Shown: positions 5,317-61,251 of the stretch, piece after piece
Numbering within the stretch: position 1 is the first letter of the stretch
Layout: each line of letters opens with the position of its first letter
From: Paenibacillus amylolyticus
Lineage (GTDB): Bacteria > Bacillota > Bacilli > Paenibacillales > Paenibacillaceae
Assembly: GCF_029689945.1 (NCBI RefSeq)
Contig: NZ_CP121451.1
Span: 4,526,001 to 4,590,000 of the forward strand
Length of the DNA: 64,000 nucleotides
Reading direction: 5' to 3'
The notes under the pieces: model-generated
What the model was told of the DNA's origin: nothing
What the model saw: only the letters and a program-made list of their open reading frames with translations
The model's database searches: none
Translations under genes and position numbers: made by a program

Positions 5317-6782
5317 TTACAGGATTTCTCCGTTCGTTTCAATCACTTGTTTGTACCAGTAGAACGAATCCTTACGAGTTCTCGCTAGTGAACCATGTCC
5401 TGCGTTGTCCTGATCGACGTAAATAAAGCCGTAACGTTTGCCCATCTCTGAAGTTGAACAGCTAATGATATCAATGGGACCCCAACTGGTGAACCCCATC
5501 AATTCCACGCCATCAGCTACAGCTTCTTTCATCTGTTCGATATGACTGCGCAGGTACTCAATCCGGTAGGTGTCATGTACGGTTCCGTCCTCTTCCAGTG
5601 TATCCTTAGCGCCCAGTCCGTTCTCCACGATGAAGAGTGGCATCCGGTAACGGTCATACAACCGGTTAAGCGCAATACGCAGACCGATTGGGTCGATAGG
5701 CCATCCCCACTCGGTAGCTTTGAGATGCGGATTTTTAATCTGGCTGACCAGCATGCCGGAGTTGCTGTTATCATTCGGATCATATTTTCCAATGTACGTC
5801 ATGTAGTAGCTGAATGCGATAAAGTCCACTGTATTATCTCGGATAATGGCATCATCCTCAGGTCCTTTGACCAGTTCGATACCCTGTTCTTCAAAGTAAC
5901 GTTGCATGTAAGACGGGTATTCCCCCGTGCCTGTACTTCCGGATAGAACAAGTTCATCTGATCTTCCTTCAGTGTTTGCAGAACGTCTTCCGGTTTACTG
6001 GAGGCAGCATACGTCTCCAGGCGGCAGATCATACAGCCGATTTGAGCATTCGGCATTTTCTCTTTACCACTCTTGACAGCGAGAGCACTTGCGACAAATT
6101 GATGGTGAGTCGCCTGATATGCCACTTGTTCTTGCGAACCTTTAATTTTATCTTCCAGAATGCCGCCGCCGGTGTACAGGCTTGTCAGCATCATATTCAT
6201 CTCGTTAAAGGTGATCCAGTATTTCACTTTGTTTTTGTAACGGTCAAACAGCGTGTTGGCAAATTTCAGATACAGGTCGATCATTTCTCGGCTTTCCCAA
6301 CCGTTGTATTTACGAGTTAATTCTACAGGCATTTCGTAGTGCGAGATCGTTACGAGCGGCTCAATGCCATGTTTCAAGAGTTCGTCGAGCACGTTATCAT
6401 AGAAGGCAAGTCCAGCTTCATTGGGAACAGCTTCTTCTCCTGTCGGGAAGATGCGTGTCCACGCGATCGACAGACGAAACACTTTGAAACCCATTTCTGC
6501 AAACAATGCAATGTCTTCCTGGTAGCGATGATAGAAATCCACACCGTTCCGTTTCGGAAAGTAGACGTCTGAGTTACCGCTCAAATATTCTTCCAACTGA
6601 ACGGAATCCACGTCGAAAGTGAAATCTTTACCGTTACGCTCTTCATGAGGGATATAAGGTGCCATATCTGAAGTGGAAAGTCCTTTGCCATCTGCGTCAT
6701 ATGCCCCTTCGAGCTGATTGGCCGCGGTAGCTCCTCCCCATAAGAATCCTTTAGGAAATGAGTGTTTGATTGTTTTTGTCAT
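5317..6782 (-). CDS. bglH: GH1 6-phospho-beta-glucosidase (frameshifted)
   Basis: Cytoplasmic enzyme that hydrolyses phosphorylated beta-glucosides delivered by the PTS gene upstream. The N-terminal [19 protein letters not shown], acid/base Glu in TFNEMN (residue 194) and nucleophile Glu in IVENGLG are all visible. [13 protein letters not shown] near the C-terminus is the phosphate-binding motif of 6-phospho enzymes. The start MTKTIKHSF follows AAGGAGAG; an ATG at 6812 lacks a ribosome site. The frame breaks in a run of five C (5922-5926): adding one base joins VQARG to [10 protein letters not shown] and restores a protein of normal length, about 488 residues. It is the last gene of licT-bglP-bglH. 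Confidence 0.9.
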
Positions 6783-6869
6783 GTGGTTTCTCTCCTTTTT
6801 GGGTGAATACAAAGTTGTTTTATATTGCTCGTTAGTCCTTTTTAAAGAAAGTACCCCTTCATACCGCTG

Positions 6870-58906: not shown

Positions 58907-58934
58907 TCATGTAAATTGATAATTTCGTAATGAT

Positions 58935-61251
58935 TTATTGATTAATCCAATCGTATCCCTTCAATTCAATCATAGAATTGGGGCCAGAGAAGGTTAGCTC
59001 TATTTGTTGTTCCTGATAGGATACAGTTACTCTTGATTCTCCAATAGAGCGAATTTTCGCATTCAACAGACGACCCGATTCCCATTCCAGATCTAATTCA
59101 AATCCGCCACGAGCCCGAATACCACGAATATAGCCTTTTGGCCACGCTTCAGGCAAAGCAGGTAACAATCGGATTGCATCGTCATGGCTCTGGAGAAGCA
59201 TCTCTGCTATACCTGCAGTACCTCCAAAGTTCCCATCAATTTGAAATGGAGGATGGTCACAGAACAGATTAGGTAACGTAGAGGAACGTAGAAGTTCCAC
59301 GATGTTATCGTGTGCGAGTTCCGACTCCTCTAGTCGTGCCCACATATTGAGAATCCACGCCCTGCTCCAACCCGTGTGTCCGCCACCGTGCTGCAATCTT
59401 CTGTTGAGTGTTACGCGAGCTGCCGCAGCCAGGTCAGGCGTTGATTGCAACGATATTTGCGTTCCCGGATGCAAGGCGAATAAATGGGAAATATGTCTGT
59501 GACCAGGTTCCACTTCATCATAATCGTTACTCCACTCTTGAATCTGACCATGTTTTCCAATGGAGGTTTCCGGTATTTTGGTTAAAGCATTACGGAGCAA
59601 CTCTCCAAATTCCTGATCTTCCTGCAAAATTCGGCTACTTTCAATGCAACGCTTGAAGAGCTCCCTAATAATCTGATTATCCATTGAAGCACCAAAACAT
59701 AAAGCCCCCGACTCTCCATTTTCTAATACATAGCGATTTTCCGGTGAGGACGAAGGACATATCACCCAATTCCCGGAAGGATCCTCGATTAGATAATCCA
59801 GAATAAACACCGCCGCATCTTTCATCGTGGAGTACACTTTCTTGAGGAACTGCACATCTTTGTTGTATTCGTAGTGGTCCCACAGATGTAATGAAAGCCA
59901 TGCTCCTCCCATGGTCCAAAACGTCGATGTCATGCATACATCCTGCGGAGCAGTGTCTGCCCAAATATCCGAATTGTGATGAGCAACAAACCCCTTGCAT
60001 CCATACATGGTTCTGGCGGTTTCCTTGCCTCGGACTTGCAATCGCTCTATAAAATCAAACAATGGAACGTGACATTCAGACAAATTGCACATTTCGGCAG
60101 GCCAGTAATTCATCTGTGTATTAATATTAATCGTGTATTTGCTGTCCCATACTGGAAGCATGTCCTTATTCCATATCCCTTGAAGGTTTGCCGGTAAAGA
60201 ACCTGGACGACTGCTTGAGATAAGCAGATAACGACCAAATTGAAAGTATAGACTCATCAGTTCCGGATCATGCTTGCCATCTCTAAGCCGTTCAAGGCGC
60301 TGATTGATTGGAAGTTCGGAACAGATCACTTCTTTATTTTCATCTTCGAGATGTATATCCACTTTTTTGAATAAGGCTTGATAGTCCGAGACATGATTGG
60401 CGAGCAGTTCACTGTATGGCTTGGTTGAAGCATCTTCCATTCTTCGTAGGCACTCCGCTTCAAGTTGTTCTTTGGGTATTCGGAAATCCGTGCAAGCCGA
60501 GATTAGAATAGTCGCTGAATTACCACCCTTCAGAGAAAGCTGACCACTTGAATAATGAACCTGCCCCCTTCGGATATCAAGCGAATCCCGCAACAAAATC
60601 GAATGCCTTCTTCTCCCCACTTCTTCCCCGGATGATCACGTCATTTGTTCCACGCTTTTCGATCCGGTCCAGATTGGATTGGAACCCCACAGGATGCTTC
60701 AAACTACTGGACCAGTGTGTTGATTGCAGGACAGCTCCCCTTCCAAAAATAGTCGAGAAAGATAACTTCCCAGGTACACTGGATTTGAGATGAACAACGA
60801 GCACCTGGTCCGGGTAGCTGGCAAAATAATCACGGGTATACATGGATTGATCTGCGGTATAGTTCACGGTTGCCTTGCCTTGCTCCAGATCCAGATATCG
60901 TTCATATTCATTCGGTTCTTGTTCACTGTGATCCATGGCGATATAGAAGTCTCCTAATGGCTCATAATGTCTTTGCCCGTCAGGAACACCTACCAGAGTA
61001 TCTGCTGCGAGTTCTTCTGCTTCCCTAATCTTACCGTCAAAAATCAGGCTTCTGATCTGAGATAAAGATTCAAGTGCTTGAGGATTATTCCGCTGCATCG
61101 GACCACCATACCACAGACTATCTTCATTAAGCTGAATTCTCTCGATCTGTGTTTTCCCAAAAATCATGCCTCCAAGAGTTCCATTTCCGATAGGCATTGC
61201 CTCTTCCCATGTTCTAGCAGGTTGATTAAACCAGATATTTTTGGTCTTCAC
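58935..61251 (-). CDS. GH95 alpha-L-fucosidase (two frameshifts)
   Basis: About 773 residues, cytoplasmic, normal GH95 length. The N-terminal beta domain starts [22 protein letters not shown] with [11 protein letters not shown]; the alpha/alpha barrel has [34 protein letters not shown] (catalytic region) and [18 protein letters not shown]. Breaks: runs of four C (60615-60618) and five C (60564-60568); one added base in each gives [15 protein letters not shown] and [22 protein letters not shown] start follows TTGGAGG. The family removes alpha-1,2-L-fucose, or L-galactose, by inversion. It ends the glycan locus. Confidence 0.93.

Follow-up and report, generated by a model that had tools for sequence, protein, structure and literature searches.

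The 18 frame breaks found in the window (the whole stretch of 64,000 nucleotides analysed here) are, with high confidence, consensus-sequence errors in which short homopolymers are undercounted, probably those of an incompletely polished nanopore-type assembly; the finding is almost certainly an assembly artefact of an ordinary kind and not a real biological feature. Base calling and polishing would undercount short homopolymers, most readily runs of at least four G or C and of at least six A or T, and would lose a base roughly 0.4 times in each kb of coding sequence in all sampled parts of the chromosome, which, if the sampled rate holds elsewhere, would amount to about 2,500 such events on the chromosome; in the organism itself the genes are most likely intact. 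The window comes from a 3-contig assembly (completeness 95.84%) and lies on a contig of 6,824,844 bases. Because the assembly has 3 contigs, one of 6.82 Mb, and because of its error profile, we infer that it was built from nanopore-type long reads.

Matching regions of five relatives, 89-90% identical to the window and each covering 54.6-59.3 kb of its 64 kb, were aligned to it, and an event was counted wherever every aligned relative, at least three in number, showed the same indel against the window. The wider sample comprised the window and four 100-kb blocks (A-D, a pair on either side of the origin), whose events required at least two aligned relatives, all agreeing; coverage by at least two relatives reached 76, 69, 93 and 92 kb of the 100 kb in A, B, C and D, respectively. 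For a background rate, each relative was also taken as the focal genome in the same indel analysis. Since the only dnaA match in the genome lies at 1.06 Mb on the minus strand, the window is located roughly opposite the origin, and its minus strand is probably the leading strand, judging from the collinear relatives. One window protein showed 88-93% identity in records that bear the name Paenibacillus xylanexedens or P. amylolyticus and 94% in a single record titled P. polymyxa. Positions 44500-46890 had no aligned counterpart in the regions of the five relatives; the genes there for an iron-containing alcohol dehydrogenase and for an AraC-type regulator have open frames.

Each of the 18 positions at which a preliminary description of the sequence had joined broken frames by eye coincided with an indel relative to related Paenibacillus chromosomes. 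In the comparison with homologous Paenibacillus genomes that this description had proposed as a check, four or five relatives agreed at 17 of the 18, the joined position and the indel lying within about 60 bases of each other. The remaining position, 14524, was backed by G048, the sole relative aligning there, which differs by an indel at four further places in the surrounding stretch. All 18 events fell in minus-strand genes, as described, and were spread over 13 of them (Table 1). The statement that nearly all were one base short in a homopolymer held in part: 16 of the 18 were single-base losses, the exceptions being a two-base loss (27335) and a two-base gain in cydA (32551), and among the 15 such losses that were placed within minus-strand coding sequence, 11 lay in runs that measure 3-6 in the relatives while four lay in no run.

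Table 1. Broken minus-strand genes of the window, with the relatives that agree on each break.
Gene or product	Positions	Strand	Break	Relatives in agreement	Identification
GH1-family (6-phospho-)beta-glucosidase	5317..6782	-	near 5922	4/4 aligned	Pfam GH1, G048 copy
Rce1-like CAAX protease	13984..14871	-	near 14524	G048 only	Pfam, G048 copy
DsbA/thioredoxin-like	15136..16089	-	near 15264	5/5	Pfam
LysR-family regulator	17230..18041	-	near 17318 (first placed at 17315)	5/5	Pfam
Sensor histidine kinase	22983..24719	-	23972, 24318	5/5 each	Pfam
cydC	27007..28732	-	two-base loss near 27342	5/5	NCBIfam TIGR02868 over cut-off, G048 copy
cydD	28729..30520	-	29046, 30452	5/5 each	NCBIfam TIGR02857 over cut-off
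Probable cydB	30535..31546	-	31107, 31455	5/5 each	by position, cydA-cydD; no match in an NCBIfam search at 1e-10
cydA	31546..32912	-	two-base gain 32547-32549	5/5	two pieces over PF01654 cut-off
ABC transporter permease	47833..48802	-	47881, 48249	5/5 each	Pfam BPD_transp_1
Extracellular solute-binding protein	50627..52287	-	near 51949	5/5	Pfam SBP_bac_8
Gene (669 aa in G048)	55814..57822	-	near 57529	5/5	no Pfam family at 1e-5
GH95-family	58942..61251	-	60563, 60614	5/5 each	Pfam

In total, 33 private frame-breaking indels were found in the window, 12 labelled non-coding and 3 without a label, so that indels also fall outside genes; one of the 12, at 17318, lies within a minus-strand gene by a second gene assignment. 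Each relative, taken as focal genome, had 0 or 1 such coding-sequence event in the same region, and the number of breaks in the window is far above this background. The same excess was seen throughout the wider sample, this assembly carrying 137 private frame-breaking indels over its 320.1 kb of aligned coding sequence vs 4 in 338.6 kb (G003), 6 in 339.5 kb (G035) and 9 in 341.0 kb (G048), while frame-keeping indels were similar in number (18 here vs 8, 15 and 16 in these three relatives). Blocks A-D contributed 118 of these events, consisting of 110 single-base losses, 5 single-base gains and 3 two-base losses. Since the relatives are about 90% identical here, some events could be natural, a few percent to judge by the relatives' own rate (0.012-0.026 events per kb of coding sequence), and the verdict on any one site is a judgement from the aligned sequences.

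The losses followed run length closely. Of 126 single-base losses in coding sequence, 80 lay in runs at least three long in the relatives, and 36 of the remaining 46 touched a run of at least three in this assembly, vs about 18% of random coding positions; at these 36 sites the run, or a position next to it, often carried a substitution in the relatives, so that the true run of this strain is probably longer. The risk of a loss climbed with run length, more steeply for G/C runs (0.2, 1.3 and 8.8% per run at intact lengths of 3, 4 and 5) than for A/T runs (0.1, 0.5 and 1.4%, reaching 10% at six). Consistently, alignment-free counts, in which the compared regions overlap and are not cut identically, gave very few C/G runs of six, with 6 in 464 kb here vs 38 in 560 kb of G003, or 1.3 per 100 kb vs 4.3-6.8 in three relatives, and moderately fewer A/T runs of six or seven than in the relatives. 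Against run shortening as the whole account stand the 2 of 18 window events that were other than single-base losses and the 10 of 126 losses neither in nor touching a run of at least three.

Homopolymer indels are described in nanopore-only or long-read bacterial assemblies in the parts of PMC8011154 and PMC12007338 drawn on here, the former giving counts of 151-5298 annotated pseudogenes for R9.4 genomes processed with a common polishing pipeline and the latter tying deletions to runs of 2-8, most of them after four to five. The present assembly resembles the assemblies of those excerpts in having mainly homopolymer indels that shift reading frames; its own G/C runs proved to be strongly capped at a length of five, and its platform was deduced. 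Methylation- or modification-linked nanopore errors, as presented in an excerpt of PMC10687267, would likewise be systematic consensus errors, but here the risk follows run length, and a minor share of the errors may be of that kind.

In blocks A-D, at least one frame-breaking indel was present in 87 of 249 genes, so that roughly one in three of these genes is split, bearing out the expectation that proteins predicted from this sequence would be truncated. Gene absences, numbers of pseudogenes and interruptions of operons taken from this assembly are therefore not trustworthy, and comparative studies may inherit its errors.

The preliminary description had noted that no plus-strand gene of the window was visibly broken, and indeed none was broken internally relative to the relatives; an event at 11171 lies just upstream of a plus-strand start codon. 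From this pattern it had proposed that the consensus error is itself strand-biased. Such an error, arising from one-strand reads or a modified base and preferring minus-strand genes, would suit the window, where 0 of 17 internal events lay in plus-strand genes (P = 0.015-0.020), but it did not survive the wider sample and we consider it very unlikely. In blocks A-D, where the plus strand carries 44% of the coding length, 36 of 107 plus-strand and 51 of 142 minus-strand genes were broken (Fisher p = 0.79), 46 of the 118 events fell in the 118 kb of plus-strand and 72 in the 151 kb of minus-strand coding sequence (p = 0.31), and leading and lagging strands showed no difference (p = 0.62). Furthermore, two plus-strand cydA paralogues were split, and losses in non-coding runs, read as plus-strand letters, were A 12, T 9, G 3 and C 1. 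Event rates per kb of coding sequence (plus/minus) were 0.29/0.43 in A, 0.46/0.33 in B, 0.41/0.51 in C and 0.48/0.53 in D, vs 0.18/0.43 in the window.

With the hazards from blocks A-D, the expected plus-strand share of the window losses was 21%. On this run-content expectation the probability of 0 of 17 was 0.020 and that of at most 2 of 19 was 0.22 (19 being the 17 internal events plus two at the edges of plus-strand genes); on coding length the corresponding values were 0.015 and 0.18. Overall, the imbalance is borderline, with p between 0.01 and 0.22 depending on the counting rule, for a pattern noticed after the fact in one window. It fits chance and needs no further cause: about four fifths of the coding sequence lying on the minus strand, together with a modest chance deviation, would produce it, and a weak local strand effect in the window may be present as well. 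The strand pattern of a single 64-kb window is thus better checked where genes run in the opposite direction before a bias is called.

Two further differences concern plus-strand frames of the window. At 41406-41408, near the C-terminus of a plus-strand gene, a 7-base difference from 5/5 relatives is unlike run shortening and may have a natural origin. At 26785, a one-base difference from 5/5 relatives falls in a small plus-strand frame (26541-26810, 89 aa) that gave no match in a Pfam search; should it be a genuine gene, the difference would shift its end, and the window would then hold one broken gene on the plus strand.

The lost base had also been described as almost always C or A on the plus strand. 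This applies to 13 of the 15 window losses if the four non-run sites, where the relatives show another letter inside or beside the run, are read as run letters, but it does not extend elsewhere. Taken from the relatives at the first of tied positions, the 15 plus-strand letters were C 6, A 3, T 3 and G 3, and with refined placement C 5, A 4, G 3 and T 3, while all 55 losses in runs of minus-strand genes (window included) gave C 22, T 18, G 8 and A 7. In coding orientation, the run losses (G 28, A 26, T 14, C 12) matched those expected from run content (G 29.6, A 25.8, T 14.2, C 10.4). Coding strands are richer in G runs than in C runs, and long A runs outnumber T runs, which explains the excess of plus-strand C (and T) for minus-strand genes; the A preference of the window is small-number scatter.

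That a few of the breaks are genuine mutations of the strain has, in our view, a very slim chance. It is the two-base gain in cydA, unlike run shortening, that suggests it, and if this gain were true, one bd-type terminal oxidase would have been lost or switched in the lineage. Every gene of the cyd operon is broken in the window (cydB being assigned by position only).

Genuine gene decay, which would make the broken genes pseudogenes of the strain, is extremely unlikely. The indels are private to this assembly, as decay would have them, and paralogues could cover for some genes, as for cydA with its three loci in the genome; yet all three cydA loci (two of them on the plus strand) are in pieces, and the losses track run length. 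Decay further predicts that essential genes stay intact, whereas dnaA, gyrB and guaB, which cells need, were all split. In place of the 448 aa of dnaA in the relatives, its single match here consists of overlapping frames of 239 and 267 aa; gyrB (639 aa in a relative) is found as 520 and 87 aa, and guaB (IMP dehydrogenase, 485 aa in a relative) as 394 and 97 aa, the three genes being named by NCBIfam on the relative's copies. Around the origin, where G003 was the one relative compared, frame-breaking indels affected 31 of 121 genes, and names were assigned to 20 genes of this region; with G003 as sole witness, about 3 to 7 of the 44 gene-internal events could be of natural origin at the relatives' rates, both lineages counted. 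These splits, together with the 137 events set against 4-9 in the relatives and the dependence on run length, strongly uphold the earlier judgement that consensus error and not gene decay is at work, and genes were hit regardless of strand or essentiality, as undercalled runs predict. A mutator lineage, in which loss of mismatch repair had shortened the runs in the living cell, is scarcely credible, for although mismatch-repair-deficient strains do show run shortening, essential genes are affected, the effect is already strong in runs of four or five, and losses far exceed gains in coding sequence. Both decay and a mutator lineage are rejected mainly because essential genes are broken.

As a further essential example tilS was considered and dropped, its open frame measuring 472 aa vs 479 aa in G003, which places the break near its end. 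Two further genomes of the genus likewise have a short dnaA frame (338 aa for G050, match at G050:C1:4604119-4604325, and 311 aa for G054, match at G054:C1:663591-663797, the completeness of G054 being 89%), vs 448-450 aa in six others, and these two may carry the same kind of error.
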